IMG/VR virus record: IMGVR_UViG_3300006332_001381
Coordinates: 1-31,571 of that record
Direction: 5' to 3' (one strand)
Source: a virus
DNA length: 31,571 bases
Positions 316 through 7,237 of the stretch are shown here, piece by piece (the first letter of the stretch is position 1; each line of letters begins with the position of its first letter). The notes below the pieces were generated by a model, which ran no database searches, was not told the origin of the DNA, and saw nothing but the letters and a program-made list of their open reading frames with translations. The translations under genes were made by a program, and so were the position numbers.

Positions 316-1848
316 TTAGAACTCGATTACGATTTTAATGTCTTCTACTTGGTCGTTTGCACGACTGATTGCTCTCCTATTATCTATATAAACAACCTGA
401 CCGCTATTTGGTTCAATTTCTGCTTTTGCATATCCACTAGTAAATCTCATACCCAAATCATACTCTGTGTTGTTAATAGTTCTTGAAGAAGAATTAGGAA
501 CAGCAGGAAAGTTTACGTCTGGTTGACCAGATGCACCTGAAGTTGCTCCACTTATAACGTTAGATCCATCAAACTCATTCTGTGTACCAGTAACTTCAGG
601 GAAGATACCATCAACTGAGTTCTGATAGTATTTCAAAACTTTAGTTGTTGCATTCCATGAAATAACTCTTGCACGAGCAGTAACGTTGGTTCCCCCAACA
701 ACTCGTGTTTGCGTAATAATCTCGTCAGGAACATAGTTTCCTTGGAAAGTTGGAGAGAAAATAACTGCTTTTGTAGCAGAAACTGTCAAATCTGCAAGAA
801 GTTCTGATGTACCAAACTTGAGTGGATTTGTTACCAATCCAATACGACGATAATCATTATCAATAGGGAAGTCACCTGCACCCTCATCATATGAGAGTTT
901 AGCATTAATCATTACACGGAAACCACCTAGTTCAATACTAGAATCAAATCCATGTCCATCTGGAGGTGGAATAATAACATCAACTTCTCCACTAGTACCT
1001 GTACCAATACCAGTAATAGCAGTAATACTAATTTGACCAAATGTATATCCTGTACCACCAGATGTTACAGTAGCAGAAGTAACCTTACCACCGTCAACAA
1101 CGATAGAAACACGACCTCCAGTACCATCACCGTTAATAGCAACGTTATCATATGTTCCGTTATTATATCCAGAACCAGCAGCGTTTATAACAACAGTATC
1201 AATCTCTCCAGAAACAGCATTAGTCTTTACCGCAGTATTGGTAAAGACTGGCATGTAGTCATTAGAGAAGAATTTAAGGACTGAAGCAACAGGGATGGTG
1301 TACATATACTTCCAACGATATCCATCGCCAGTAGTAATAATAGAGGTACTAGTGCCAGTAGGCTCAACTGTAGAAGGTTTACCATTAGGATCAGAGGGTG
1401 AGGTACCATTATAAATGCACTTATATACTTGATATTGTGAATTCACAACAAAAAAGTCTGCATCATATAATTTAGTAGCACCAGAAGAAGCAGTTTTAGT
1501 TGGAGAATAATTATGACGATACATGTCATAAGTAAAACCCAAACCACCCGTAGTTTCTTCGGGAGAAACCCAATCAATTCTACGAACAACCTGAACCGTA
1601 TCTGCAGCAAGAACTCTCTTAAGAGAGATCATGTCATCATATGAGTTAGAAAACTCTGAAAATGAATCCACTGCTTGTGGGGGTGCGTTCTCATTATCCC
1701 AAGGTTGGGATCTTCCAATAAAAACATAAAGTCTATCTCGATTGACACCAGCTGCAGAATCGCTCTGAGTTGCATCTGGTCCTTCAAGTGCTTTGATGAA
1801 TTTCCTCGCTGAAAAAATTCTAAATTGATCAGTTAATAGGGCTGCCAT
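316..1848 (-). CDS. 8: Baseplate wedge subunit gp8, enlarged form (510 aa)
   Basis: This is the T4 gp8 homologue, a baseplate wedge protein that binds gp7 and gp10 in T4. Matches to T4 gp8 run along its length: the N-terminal TDQFRIFSARKF segment, FIGRSQPW (about 43-50; T4 has FGRSEPW), VVRRIDWV (T4 IPRRDW), GDGYRWKYMYTIP (about 173-185; T4 GDGYVWEYLFEIP), RRIGLVTNPL (T4 RQISIITNPL) and the C-terminus YIDNRRAISRANDQVEDIKI (T4 YMENRPPIIMAMDQTEEINI). At 510 residues it is much longer than T4 gp8 (334). The extra length is two insertions: about 211-298, holding two GxGY beta-repeats, and roughly 345-460, holding a beta module like one in the upstream gene. The start is supported by the family's N-terminus. 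The leader from 1849 to 1883 has a near-perfect late promoter, but AGGA motifs lie either too near or too far for a good ribosome site. Confidence 0.93.
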   Translation of the reverse strand: MAALLTDQFRIFSARKFIKALEGPDATQSDSAAGVNRDRLYVFIGRSQPWDNENAPPQAVDSFSEFSNSYDDMISLKRVLAADTVQVVRRIDWVSPEETTGGLGFTYDMYRHNYSPTKTASSGATKLYDADFFVVNSQYQVYKCIYNGTSPSDPNGKPSTVEPTGTSTSIITTGDGYRWKYMYTIPVASVLKFFSNDYMPVFTNTAVKTNAVSGEIDTVVINAAGSGYNNGTYDNVAINGDGTGGRVSIVVDGGKVTSATVTSGGTGYTFGQISITAITGIGTGTSGEVDVIIPPPDGHGFDSSIELGGFRVMINAKLSYDEGAGDFPIDNDYRRIGLVTNPLKFGTSELLADLTVSATKAVIFSPTFQGNYVPDEIITQTRVVGGTNVTARARVISWNATTKVLKYYQNSVDGIFPEVTGTQNEFDGSNVISGATSGASGQPDVNFPAVPNSSSRTINNTEYDLGMRFTSGYAKAEIEPNSGQVVYIDNRRAISRANDQVEDIKIVIEF

Positions 1849-1883: not shown

Positions 1884-4800
1884 CTATTTGGAACGAACGG
1901 TTGATAAATACTCAATGCTCTTAATTCTATACTGTGCTCCGTTATTTCCAGAGACCTTTTCACCACCCATAATTGCATATCCAACAGCACCAGAACCTGT
2001 GGTATCTCCACCAGCATTAGTGAATGTAATTGTTGGGTGTATATTATATGAGTTGTCTACACTCTGCACATAACCATATCCACCATTTGTAATGGTAATT
2101 CCTCCAACTTGGTCGCCAGCAACTGTCATAGTAACTGTTCCTGTTGCCTGTATATCACCAATAGATTCAAATGCCACTGTTGGTATTGCGGAATAGTTTG
2201 TTCCTGCATTTTGAATTACAACATCAACAATCGTGCTATTCTCAGCAAATTTATATAGATATCCAGCTTCTCCAACATTAACATCACCAGTATTGAATGC
2301 AGTGACATCCTTTAACTGAAGAACTTTATTTGATAAATCCCAAGAAACTACTGTTCCTCTAACACCAGATGTATCTCCAGTAACAATTTCATTAACACTA
2401 AAGTTTTGACCATTACCATCCAAAGCATCCAAAGTTATATTAACAAGAGCATTGTGCTCTCTTCCTTCACTAAGTCCACCTGCTATGGCAATATTTGCAT
2501 ATCTAAATGGTACATTAGCATCTTTGACGCTATCACCAACTTGTAATAATGTAGTATTTGTTCCACCTTGCGTTTCTTCAATACCATAAAGAGAACTGTA
2601 AATACCACCATCCAAACTAATTTGATTCTCATACTCAGTTGATGTATTAACTAGATCAGGTATACCATCACCAGCACCCTCATTTTCTAGAATATCTTGG
2701 AATTCTTTATCCTGAAGAGTTGAAATTGGATTTGTAAGAGTTATAATTGTAGATCCTAATACAGTAAGAACAACATGTGGAGAATCAAGAGCACCAGATG
2801 CACCAGCAACACCAGCATCAAATTGAACTGTAGCTTCTTCACTAGATGGAATACCACCATCAATAAATGCTAATTCGTCAATTTCAAATGTTAATAGTAG
2901 TTCTCTAGTGCTGGCATTCCAATCATAAACTTTAGCAACTTTATTACTAGCACTTTCAACTCTACGAATTACTCGATCACCAATATTGAATTTATATGTA
3001 GAAATACCACTATCATCATTTTGACCATCATCAAGAATAACCCTCTGGTCATAATTAAAGTTTACACCTCTAGTAATACCAGCAAATTTTTCATCTGTTT
3101 TACTAGTATATGCAATAGTTTCATAGTCTAAAATAAATTCACCAGATCCAGGAAAAGCACCAGTATTTGATACATAAATTTCACTAGCAGATGTAGTTAC
3201 ATCTTTAGTAAGACCACTCAAGTAAATATTTTTGGCATTATTTGCCTGACGAGCTCTAGTCTTACGTTTAAGATTTACCAATCTTGTAAATATTACATTT
3301 GGTGGAGTAGTATACCCACTACCTTGATCAGTTACAGTAATGCCTGTAATCTGACCCTGATCGATTGTAGCAACTGCTTTTGCACCTATACCTCCACCAC
3401 CAGATATAAGAATATATGGAGGTTCCTGATAGAATTCTCCAGGATCTGCAATAGCAATTGAAGTAATCTTTCCAGTAGTATCGATTTTTGCAGATCCTTG
3501 AGCGTCCTGACCTCCTCCTCCTTCAAAAACCATGGTGGGAGCACTACTATAACTTCTACCAGAATTTAATAATGTTAAACCTGTAACTGTCTGCACTGTA
3601 GATGTTCCAGTAGCACCAGATCCTTCACCACCTAATATTCTTGCCTTTGTAGTATTATAATAATTATCACCATTCTTAGTCATCTTAACATAAGCTATTG
3701 CTCCACTATCATTAAGTACAACGTCTCCAGCAGCACCATCAGGAAAATCTGATAGAACTTCTGGAACAGAATTTCCCTCAAATAGTGGTGTACCGTAAAA
3801 TTTACGTCCAATAACATATGGATAAACAGGATTTCCACTGCTATCCTCTGTCATAAAATATGCATATGTACCATTTGGATAGTCTGGAGTTACTGCAAAC
3901 TTTCCATTAAATTCATCAAGAGTTCCAACACTAGAATCGTAAATATAATCTTGTACCAAATCACCTAAAATATAACCACTTTGAACAGTTCTTAATCCCA
4001 AACCACTAGTTTGATATCCAAAAATGTATAACGCATCAGGTGCTGTTACTGGAACAACAATTTGAATTCTTCTTTGGGTTGCTGCGTTAAATCCAGCAAT
4101 ATATGCAGCATAAGTTACTGTAGAACCATCTAATGTATATGTGACACCTAATTCATACAAATATGAAGTAGTTCCAATACTACTAGAAGGATGCCATCCA
4201 CCATCAGTTTCTGAAAATAGTAAAAACTCACCATTATTAGAAGCATCATCCTGATTGAAAATAAAAGTTTTTCCTCTACCTAAAGATAAGAAATTAGGTC
4301 TAGAACCACCAAATAAAAATTCTCCATTAGAAACTGTTACAGTATAAGTGGTTGTACCAGTCGTATTTACAGCAGGTCTTGCACCAGGAAGTTCTGCAGT
4401 AGTTCTTAATCGATGTGAAGATACTTGCCTTACAGCAGTACCACTGGAATTATATCCCCAAGGACCATAAATGGGATATCCATCATAGGACATACCAAGA
4501 ATTTTAGAGTGTCCATCACTACGACGACTATAATCTAAAGTTCCACCAGATCCATAATAATTTTCAACATAATAATTATTGGTTAATGTCTCAGCACTAG
4601 TATCTGTACTGAGAATCATATATCCTTCATCACCAGAAGAACCAGCCATATTTGGATGATTCTTACAGTAGTAGTAAATTTTATTCGTTTCATCCGCATT
4701 CATTATGAATATAGGAGCATATTCATTTTCATAATCTGCTGCTGGATCCGATGACGCTCCAGTACTTGTATAATAAAGAGTTCCTGGAGTATCGTTATGT

Positions 4801-6008
4801 GTACCGTCAGCAGTTGTACTGAATCTAATTGGATGAGTATTATTAGTGGAATCTGATTGATTAAATTTAATCAAATAATTCCTTTTTACTGTAATATTTT
4901 CTGGAGCAAAGTAAAATGTTCCTGGTGTAAAAGTACCAAACTTTGCTGCATCTGCACCAAAGTCGATATAATATCCATTAAAAATATATGGATCCTCTGA
5001 AATTTTAAATGAAAATCCTGTAGAACCTAAACATAAGTCATTCTTAGAGAAAGAAGACCCAGTAAGTTGTCTCAAATAAATTCTAGTTACAACATTACTA
5101 CCATCTCTTACTACCTTAGAAATTTCTCCAGAAGCATTACCACCAATTTCATCAATAGTTCTACCTACAGCAAAGGTTCCTAGTGTTTCATCAACATTTG
5201 TAACATCTAGAGAAACATTAGCAGTTTCAACCTTTACGTTCCATGTAAATTGTTTAATTTTTCCCCATTCAAAAACACCATTTCCGAGTTTAAATTCATC
5301 AAGAGTTTTATTTGAATGATAATATCTTACATTTCCTTCAGTTACAGTATCATAAACACTATTACTTTTAACATAATCATATTTTACTGAATCGATGGCA
5401 AAGTTAGTTGGTGCATTTCCTGTACTTCCCCATTCTGGTGTATGTAAAAGACCACCATTAGCAAAAATACCGAGTACTTTATTATCTTGTTCTGTTCTAA
5501 CAGTAGGATGAGGTACATCTTTACCTCCTCTATAGATAAATGTTTGATCAAAACTTCTATCAATTAATGGTCCACCACCAGGTGCTGCTTCTTCTTGAAT
5601 ATAAGTGGGTTTAGGGTGATTATCAGATTGTATACGAAGTCTATCTGTATCTGCACTAAAAGTTCCTGAAATTAAAGAGTTTGGATGATCTTGCCAAATT
5701 CTATTAACATCAAAAGAATTTATAACATTTGGTGTTTCTTGTTCTGGGAAAAACTGTAATCTTAGAGGATCATAACCTTGACCTCTTTCGAGAACTCTTA
5801 CATGAATAATTTGTCCAGAATCAGAATCAATAATAGGATACAGTAATGCTTCCTGATCTGGAGTGCCACAACCAGATATAGTTAATCGTGGTGGATTTGC
5901 TGAGTCATATCCCGATCCACCGTCTAATACTCGTATTGCACGTACACCAAAATTCTCATCAAAAATTGGTTTGATGGAGGCACCTGTACCTGGAACAGTT
6001 CTAGTCAT
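1884..6008 (-). CDS. Mosaic structural protein with GxGY repeats, cupredoxin-like and YHYH-like domains (1,374 aa)
   Basis: No T4 counterpart is recognised. Seen in order: GxGY beta-repeats near the N-terminus (DGGSGYDSANPP, ERGQGYDPL); a cupredoxin-like domain at about 363-465 with His392, Cys448, His451 and Met454 in a C-x2-H-x2-M loop; a YHYH-like domain starting with DGYPIYGPWGY (about 507-518) and resuming at about 680-735 (LDEFNGKFAVTPDYPNGTYA); between these halves a second cupredoxin-like domain whose four ligand positions read E594, G664, T667 and L670; then more GxGY repeats (RSYSSAP, GSGYTTPP, TNYSAIP, GYGYVQ) and beta modules to the end. There is no signal peptide or membrane segment. 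It starts 5 bases after the preceding stop, with no visible Shine-Dalgarno sequence. The position among baseplate genes and the shared modules point to a virion surface or baseplate-fibre protein. That role is inference. Confidence 0.85.
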   Translation of the reverse strand: MTRTVPGTGASIKPIFDENFGVRAIRVLDGGSGYDSANPPRLTISGCGTPDQEALLYPIIDSDSGQIIHVRVLERGQGYDPLRLQFFPEQETPNVINSFDVNRIWQDHPNSLISGTFSADTDRLRIQSDNHPKPTYIQEEAAPGGGPLIDRSFDQTFIYRGGKDVPHPTVRTEQDNKVLGIFANGGLLHTPEWGSTGNAPTNFAIDSVKYDYVKSNSVYDTVTEGNVRYYHSNKTLDEFKLGNGVFEWGKIKQFTWNVKVETANVSLDVTNVDETLGTFAVGRTIDEIGGNASGEISKVVRDGSNVVTRIYLRQLTGSSFSKNDLCLGSTGFSFKISEDPYIFNGYYIDFGADAAKFGTFTPGTFYFAPENITVKRNYLIKFNQSDSTNNTHPIRFSTTADGTHNDTPGTLYYTSTGASSDPAADYENEYAPIFIMNADETNKIYYYCKNHPNMAGSSGDEGYMILSTDTSAETLTNNYYVENYYGSGGTLDYSRRSDGHSKILGMSYDGYPIYGPWGYNSSGTAVRQVSSHRLRTTAELPGARPAVNTTGTTTYTVTVSNGEFLFGGSRPNFLSLGRGKTFIFNQDDASNNGEFLLFSETDGGWHPSSSIGTTSYLYELGVTYTLDGSTVTYAAYIAGFNAATQRRIQIVVPVTAPDALYIFGYQTSGLGLRTVQSGYILGDLVQDYIYDSSVGTLDEFNGKFAVTPDYPNGTYAYFMTEDSSGNPVYPYVIGRKFYGTPLFEGNSVPEVLSDFPDGAAGDVVLNDSGAIAYVKMTKNGDNYYNTTKARILGGEGSGATGTSTVQTVTGLTLLNSGRSYSSAPTMVFEGGGGQDAQGSAKIDTTGKITSIAIADPGEFYQEPPYILISGGGGIGAKAVATIDQGQITGITVTDQGSGYTTPPNVIFTRLVNLKRKTRARQANNAKNIYLSGLTKDVTTSASEIYVSNTGAFPGSGEFILDYETIAYTSKTDEKFAGITRGVNFNYDQRVILDDGQNDDSGISTYKFNIGDRVIRRVESASNKVAKVYDWNASTRELLLTFEIDELAFIDGGIPSSEEATVQFDAGVAGASGALDSPHVVLTVLGSTIITLTNPISTLQDKEFQDILENEGAGDGIPDLVNTSTEYENQISLDGGIYSSLYGIEETQGGTNTTLLQVGDSVKDANVPFRYANIAIAGGLSEGREHNALVNITLDALDGNGQNFSVNEIVTGDTSGVRGTVVSWDLSNKVLQLKDVTAFNTGDVNVGEAGYLYKFAENSTIVDVVIQNAGTNYSAIPTVAFESIGDIQATGTVTMTVAGDQVGGITITNGGYGYVQSVDNSYNIHPTITFTNAGGDTTGSGAVGYAIMGGEKVSGNNGAQYRIKSIEYLSTVRSK

Positions 6009-6013
6009 TTATA

Positions 6014-7237
6014 TCAGTTTAATATATTGATAGTGCCGTTCATAAGAGAATGAACAGTGCATTGATAATAAAGAACGTTTGGACAATTCATAGGAACAGT
6101 CCAATAAAGGATACTTGTTCCACTACCAGATTGACCCTCTGTAAATGGAGTACCACTCAATCCTTGAGTACTTTGAATTCTAAATGGGTGGTTAGTACCA
6201 TTTGCACCATTATCAAATGCGTATGTCATACCTCGCATAACATACAATGTTGGATCTTCCGTAGCTGCAGCAAATCCAGGACCGTCAAATGTGAAGTGAT
6301 TAGCACCACTAGCACTCAATTCCCACCAAGTCATAGGACTGCGAGTTACAACCCAGTCAGTTCCATTCCAATATAAAGAATCTCCCTGAGTAATAGCAGG
6401 TACATCAGTATCAGTTAATGCAGCAAAAGTTGAAGTTAAAGTTCCATTAAACGCAACTGTAACTGTATCACCAGAAATAGAAGTTACAATATCATTTCCA
6501 CCAGCTATAGTAAGTGTGTCTGTAGTGGAGTTGGCAGTTGATGTTCCAGTATCACCAGCAACCGAGGCAAATAAATTTTGTAAACTCGCACCAGCAGCAT
6601 CATCACCAGGAATAAACTTACTTCCACTAGCACTCCACTTTAAAACTTGTCCATCTGCAATTGGAGTGGATGTAATATCAATATCATTTAAAAGATTAAC
6701 ACTAGAATACTCAGTAATAAGTTTTGCTCTTACATCACCAGCACCACCAGCAGTGATGTTAATATTCACATAAGGATTATCATCACCATCAACCGTAAAG
6801 AAATAACCAGTATTAGTAGCTGCAGGTGCATTACCAAGAGCAGTATACTCATTTTTATAGGAAATAGTTGATCCTACACTAACACTTCCAGTAGCACCGT
6901 CAAAAGTAGCAGTTTGACTGCCAGCAGTGATAAGAACATCTCCATTTCCATTAGGAGCAATAGTAATATTTCCATTTGAAGAAGAAATAATACTATTTCC
7001 AGCAACATCTAATGCAGAAGTTAACGCATTATAATTACCAGCAACAAAATTAGTGCCATTATATTTCAATACTTGGCCAGTAGCTGGATTGGAAAGATCT
7101 ATACTTAAAGAGGTATTGTTTCCAAGGGCGGTATATATTTCATTAAAATTATCATTAATTTTATCACCGCCACTTCTCAGCGTATCACCTGTATTATCAT
7201 TAGCTGTAGTACCAATGTTTAGGGATTGTTTAGCCAT
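6014..7237 (-). CDS. Tail-fibre-like protein with C-terminal cupredoxin-like domain (407 aa)
   Basis: The N-terminus (NIGTTANDNTGDTLRSGGDK, then INDNFNEIYTALG) is the short segment found at the start of many T4-like phage fibre proteins. The middle (about 60-300) is a low-complexity beta-rich shaft with repeated phrases such as GQVLKYNGTNFVAG and GQVLKWSASGSKFIPG. The last 105 residues form a cupredoxin-like domain: NHPFRIQS contributes His350 and YYQCTVHSLMNG contributes Cys393, His396 and Met399, the four positions of a type 1 copper site with C-x2-H-x2-M spacing. Whether copper is bound is not known; the fold may only serve as a knob or trimer tip. A perfect late promoter lies 20 bases before the ATG, so this gene can start its own late transcript. 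GTGAG just before the ATG is a weak ribosome site. Confidence 0.87.
   Translation of the reverse strand: MAKQSLNIGTTANDNTGDTLRSGGDKINDNFNEIYTALGNNTSLSIDLSNPATGQVLKYNGTNFVAGNYNALTSALDVAGNSIISSSNGNITIAPNGNGDVLITAGSQTATFDGATGSVSVGSTISYKNEYTALGNAPAATNTGYFFTVDGDDNPYVNINITAGGAGDVRAKLITEYSSVNLLNDIDITSTPIADGQVLKWSASGSKFIPGDDAAGASLQNLFASVAGDTGTSTANSTTDTLTIAGGNDIVTSISGDTVTVAFNGTLTSTFAALTDTDVPAITQGDSLYWNGTDWVVTRSPMTWWELSASGANHFTFDGPGFAAATEDPTLYVMRGMTYAFDNGANGTNHPFRIQSTQGLSGTPFTEGQSGSGTSILYWTVPMNCPNVLYYQCTVHSLMNGTINILN

Follow-up and report, generated by a model that had tools for sequence, protein, structure and literature searches.

Plastocyanin and amicyanin, the small copper proteins to which this work leads, are exported, stand-alone electron carriers, and a cupredoxin domain is also found at the N-terminus of the nitrite reductase of Hyphomicrobium denitrificans (2dv6), i.e. 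as part of an enzyme. Type 1 sites have a very high affinity for copper, the cytoplasm contains very little of it in free form, and in stellacyanins the axial ligand is a Gln. On the phage side, the annotation of gp9 in the T4 record is that of a tail fibre connector which also triggers sheath contraction. With respect to metals in virions, iron-binding phage tail fibres are discussed under the Ferrojan Horse idea; in PMC8115048, a viral NirK is described as most like gammaproteobacterial NirK. The cryo-EM study of P-SCSP1u (PMC10575957) did not resolve the distal fibres, and in its accessible text the only copper is that of the grid, which tells nothing about the domain treated here.

We analysed a stretch of viral DNA of 31,571 nucleotides (IMG/VR record IMGVR_UViG_3300006332_001381), which is referred to as the window in the following. 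Three of its genes are of importance here:

6014..7237, minus strand: gp9-type baseplate wedge tail-fibre connector, 407 aa
1884..6008, minus strand: virion protein of 1374 aa (PHROG_708, baseplate wedge subunit) that contains a YHYH domain and another cupredoxin-like domain
316..1848, minus strand: gp8 baseplate wedge, the downstream neighbour (Pfam Phage-Gp8, E 1.4e-19)

For the open frame at 7237..6014 (minus strand), the identity is clear. Residues 1-406 match PHROG_677 (‘baseplate wedge tail fiber protein connector’, E 4e-186), the N-terminal gp9/gp10 domain (T4_gp9_10_N, PF07880) is found with 43.7 bits versus a cut-off of 25, phmmer matches the gp9 and gp10 chains of T4, and among named relatives gp9 of Prochlorococcus phage P-SSM7 comes closest (93% identity, tblastn). 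In tblastn, 333 phage records match the whole gp9, and in 287 the match spans 80% or more of its length. The gene lies among baseplate wedge genes, as a T4-type gp9 should: the row in the window is a gp6-like part (PHROG_219, baseplate wedge subunit), gp9, PHROG_708 and gp8, and the order in P-SSM7 is identical (giant structural protein, gp9, homologue of the 1374-aa protein, gp8). Since the baseplate genes are ordered as in P-SSM7 and the frame encodes gp9, the window is, judged by its genes, part of a marine T4-like cyanophage genome. Adjoining gp9, an ORF of 7842 aa (7261-30789, minus strand, 23.5 kb) encodes a giant repetitive virion protein at the position that the large ‘structural protein’ has in P-SSM7, and reading by eye reveals degenerate cupredoxin-like stretches without ligands in it.

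This identification changes the view of the C-terminal domain that an earlier note on this DNA had placed at the C-terminal tip of a fibre-like protein. The C-terminal position holds, but a fibre tip is ruled out by the three matches to PHROG_677, T4_gp9_10_N and P-SSM7 gp9; because the protein is the gp9 connector, the domain would lie at the site by which the long tail fibre is held in T4 gp9, and not at a free tip. The placement, which the earlier note regarded as unusual, is not exceptional among marine cyanophages: the domain alone matches 345 phage records at E≤0.01, of which 340 carry the name Synechococcus phage, Prochlorococcus phage or cyanophage. As already stated in that note, no signal peptide is evident when the N-terminus of gp9 is read by eye. 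Likeness to T4 gp9 thus exists in the N-terminal gp9/gp10 domain, the annotated name of the cyanophage homologues and the location near gp8, whereas the solved T4 chain has 288 aa and lacks a match to the copper domain: the profile of the C-terminal domain matches neither the T4 gp9 sequence nor anything else in the T4 genome. T4 gp9 is also absent among the structural matches listed by Foldseek and VIA-align, an absence that is compatible with kinship. A model of full-length gp9 was poor (pLDDT 57.7), does not tell how the domain is oriented in the baseplate, and was set aside. The domain and its candidate ligands are located as follows:

6017..6340, minus strand: C-terminal cupredoxin-like domain, residues 300-407, about 108 aa
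6188..6190, minus strand: His350 codon, candidate N-terminal copper ligand, on the His ligand of plastocyanin (HMM profile)
6059..6061, minus strand: Cys393 codon, candidate thiolate ligand, aligned to the Cys of plastocyanin and amicyanin
6050..6052, minus strand: His396 codon, candidate C-terminal His ligand, likewise in plastocyanin and amicyanin alignments
6041..6043, minus strand: Met399 codon, candidate axial ligand, replaced by Gln in 9 of 382 wider-family domains

The predicted fold of this domain is that of a cupredoxin. AlphaFold2, run on the window domain with 65 relatives, gave a model with pLDDT 96.9 and pTM 0.89, and this model and its structural matches (Foldseek E 8e-5) indicate a Greek-key beta-sandwich. 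The alignment chosen for the fold (A3, 66 rows) combines 53 of 67 non-redundant rows with 13 close gp9 rows, the 14 rows left out including ligand-less and axial-Gln ones; it also served as profile for the searches of PDB sequences, of T4, of 15 phage records, of the species-genome collection and of P-HM2, P-SSP7 and S-PM2. Foldseek found 13 solved chains at E≤1e-3, and all of them are copper proteins (nitrite reductase, rusticyanin or laccase), but the next hit (rank 14, E 1.2e-3) is a peptidase without copper, and the fold alone is therefore no proof of a copper site. In VIA-align, the 50 matches listed are copper proteins throughout. The best is the above-mentioned 2dv6 domain (Z 10.9, 2.0 A, 92 residues), followed by rusticyanin with Z 8.4-9.6 and small laccases with about 8.1-8.7, although a Z near 8 by itself may reflect a common arrangement. 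Identity to 2dv6 is 18%, and the gp9 domain comes without the type 2 copper or the catalytic domain of an enzyme. The viral nitrite reductase of PMC8115048 was considered as a counterpart and rejected, since as far as its accessible text goes that NirK belongs to another virus and is another domain than that of gp9.

That the domain is homologous to type 1 copper proteins also follows from profile comparisons, in which PDB sequences of plastocyanin (E 7e-6) and amicyanin (E 2e-5) were found. In the alignments to plastocyanin, all four ligands of the profile (His, Cys, His and Met) land on the corresponding residues; in the amicyanin alignments, which come from a separate profile search, Cys, His and Met align and the first His is displaced by two positions. 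The gp9 domain has the short C-x2-H-x2-M loop in common with the printed amicyanin sequence. The differences lie in context, as the gp9 domain is the C-terminus of a baseplate protein with about 20% identity to these carriers, and the 407-aa gp9 is neither a stand-alone domain nor provided with an evident export signal. Curated cupredoxin models were not reached at their cut-offs by the window domain: PF00127 (Copper-bind) was not among the matches listed, amicyanin TIGR02657 scored 12.4 bits versus 110.2, and plastocyanin TIGR02656 was also below cut-off, so that the domain is not filed in any of these three. The At5g54830-like domain PF25489 weakly matches 17 of the 29 members of A2, the set from which the domain profile was built (best E 1.3e-4), which may be an overlooked kinship. 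No solved phage structure with the domain was among the best 60 of 87 and the best 60 of 97 matching PDB sequences. A library of viral models gave 59 matches at E≤0.001, with cyanophage proteins frequent among them; the BFVD entries A0A481Z6J5, A0A481YWX9, A0A481YY19 and A0A481Z7Q7, which match the domain model with E of about 1e-7 to 1e-6, are ‘Beta-sandwich proteins’ of Pithovirus- or Marseillevirus-like genomes.

Within the final 112 codons of the frame (6350-6014, minus strand), the earlier note had named His350, Cys393, His396 and Met399 as ligands with the spacing C-x2-H-x2-M. These positions are exact, they lie on the predicted cupredoxin fold, and they follow the order His ... Cys-x2-His-x(2-4)-Met of type 1 sites. 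The sequence HPF at His350 is similar to the His motif of the type 1 site in multicopper oxidases. The C..H..M pattern occurs twice in the five window proteins, once in gp9 and once in the 1374-aa neighbour, and since its mean in 1000 shuffles of this protein pair was 0.0 as printed, the occurrence is not due to chance.

All four residues are invariant in 81 of 81 aligned gp9 sequences (the window and the best 80 of 582 relatives), whereas the nearby His314 is a His in 40 and Cys385 a Cys in 3 of the 81. These gp9 sequences are close relatives, with 113 of 407 columns invariant, and more distant members were therefore sought. Among the distant records fetched, 12 of 13 contain the Cys-His-Met pattern, the exception being RN05-S. 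The domain profile recovered 456 domain copies from 285 sources, 382 of them distinct, with counts that cover the fetched loci (among them the best 80 of 411 and the best 80 of 104). At the four ligand positions, 351 of the 382 have HCHM, nine HCHQ, and one each HCHL, YCHM and RCFM; seven lack the Cys (YSAM, HSSV, ESNY, FAVM, DSTI, ESSA, DSNI), and 12 have gaps at ligand columns (six H---, four ---- and two -CHM). Where the Cys is gone, the second His is gone as well (7/7), and mostly also the first (6/7), but as the Cys-less domains stem from few loci, they do not represent seven independent losses. When columns were ranked in 323 unique domains, the top five were C393 (320), G336 (320), M399 (319), H396 (319) and H350 (318), with the qualification that this ranking used the 391 of 456 copies with fewer than 25 gaps, by which most HCHQ rows were removed. 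After reduction to 62% non-redundancy, HCHM is present in 48 of 53 domains and HCHQ in one. Even at identities as low as about 25-45%, residues 350, 393, 396 and 399 are kept as a set. Ligand-less rows were retained in the counts for the 81-gp9, 382, 323 and 1374-aa sets. The earlier note had proposed ligand conservation as a check, with its absence speaking against copper; as the ligands are kept in all 81 gp9 sequences and in most of the wider family, this objection does not apply.

The HCHQ domains form a single family, mostly in giant phage proteins, with the motif YYWCxxHxGQG, which resembles a copper site with axial Gln; the domain is located at about residues 1390-1527 (loci L218, L219, L220, L230, L239, L242, L244 and L265) or, in L202, at residues 134-239. 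In Synechococcus phage RN05-S, the domain at 2926-3270 has kept the family signature with Phe, Ala, Val and Met at the ligand columns, and it thus offers a natural ligand-less comparison.

The neighbouring gene contributes a second site:

4647..4835, minus strand: second ligand set His392, Cys448, His451 and Met454 of the 1374-aa ORF

The A3 profile matches this ORF at 4638-4901 with E 1.7e-11. Of 81 loci examined, nine gave no reading, and in 70 of the 72 readable ones the second ligand set is intact; of the two exceptions, one has Ser for Met and the other is cut off.

The domain is not restricted to gp9. It also occurs in other phage proteins, such as annotated tail fibres and a protein of the Prochlorococcus podovirus P-SCSP2, and a profile search of 15 records including the window gave at least one and up to five domain matches in each, which is not a rate, as 14 of the 15 were fetched because they matched. 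A search of the species-genome collection for the motif YYYQCxxHxxMxG gave 70 stretches, which by title come mostly from marine Bacteroidetes, and 62 of these 70 loci contain the domain by profile. These Bacteroidetes proteins have the same domain, but they are cellular by record title, many are small single-domain ORFs, and none was recognized as a virion protein. A transfer of the domain between marine bacteria and phages is likely. In QCLS01000003.1 (titled Prochlorococcus sp. AG-418-C09, 189,106 bases), a frame of 1506 residues combines Ig-like and cupredoxin domains in the manner of a virion protein, and this record may be a phage genome inside a single-cell assembly.

How could a type 1 copper protein function at this place? 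Conservation and predicted fold support the reading as a type 1 site well, and we lean towards a cupredoxin domain of the type 1 copper-like kind that is situated at the joint with the tail fibre, is probably loaded with copper outside the cell, and stabilizes or switches this joint. Gp9 is synthesized in the cytoplasm, is assembled into the baseplate in the same compartment and lacks an evident export signal, so that until lysis the site probably contains no metal or another one. Thereafter, it could be filled from cell debris or sea water, which is plausible because type 1 sites bind copper so tightly. The cupredoxin domain would replace, at least in sequence, the fibre-holding C-terminal part of T4 gp9, and the bound metal would mainly lock the ligand loops, thereby stabilizing the surface at which the fibre docks to the trimeric connector. 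A redox change of the metal could in addition tighten or loosen this joint. As ligand-less members such as the FAVM domain of RN05-S retain the domain, the metal is not required for folding everywhere.

What alternatives exist for such a copper-stabilized joint? The four conserved residues might be structural, in that the domain is a pure beta-sandwich whose Cys, His and Met form a metal-free loop core or bind zinc by chance. The seven of 382 distinct domains that persist without the Cys agree with this, as does the cytoplasmic synthesis implied by the lack of an evident signal peptide; the cytoplasm is a poor place for copper loading, and zinc or an empty site is possible. Such a structural use nevertheless appears rather unlikely to us, as residues 350, 393, 396 and 399 are retained together to about 25-45% identity, Cys and second His are lost together, it is the axial residue that changes to Gln, as in stellacyanins, and the fold neighbours are copper proteins.

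Alternatively, gp9 might be a redox sensor in which a change between Cu(II) and Cu(I) gates the deployment of the fibres and thereby couples adsorption to light or to the redox activity of the host. Adsorption of S-PM2 is light-dependent. P-HM2 cannot adsorb in the dark according to the accessible text of PMC7112961, P-SSP7 is reported as able to infect in the dark, and within the limits of these sources the domain matches fit, with five in P-HM2 and none in P-SSP7. However, S-PM2 has a single match, which is partial, and the stretch fetched from it lacks an intact motif, the domains of P-HM2 are situated in other large ORFs without established gp9 identity, and the comparison comprises three phages only. 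Three phages with one misfit give no support for a link, light-dependent adsorption as role of the domain was therefore kept as a rival reading only, and we consider a redox sensor decidedly unlikely. In a wider version, many marine cyanophage virions would be copper metalloparticles in which the type 1 centres of the connector and of the second baseplate protein form a redox switch that sets the fibre position, with adsorption tracking redox state or light around the host; this we regard as very unlikely. The virion copper might also be captured or delivered in order to harm or feed the host, or to bind a copper surface of the host. As T4 gp9 is present in many copies per virion, many copies can be expected here, but no host copper receptor is hinted at by the sequence, and this option seems most improbable. 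The analogous proposal of the Ferrojan Horse, under which iron-binding tail fibres are discussed, speaks for such delivery; the common point is a metal in a virion tail protein, whereas the metal there is iron at the fibre and here a predicted type 1 copper-like site in the connector.

A literature search by title and abstract, with subscription journals and preprints mostly outside its scope, gave nothing among the papers listed that describes this domain. To judge from sequences and models, these virus particles may contain copper. If copper is bound by the joint domain, a group of viruses that is very abundant in the ocean would have a conserved blue-copper centre in its adsorption machinery, which would be a use of a cupredoxin and a virion metal of which the search gave no description, and it would offer a new handle on how cyanophage adsorption depends on light, redox state and the copper of sea water.
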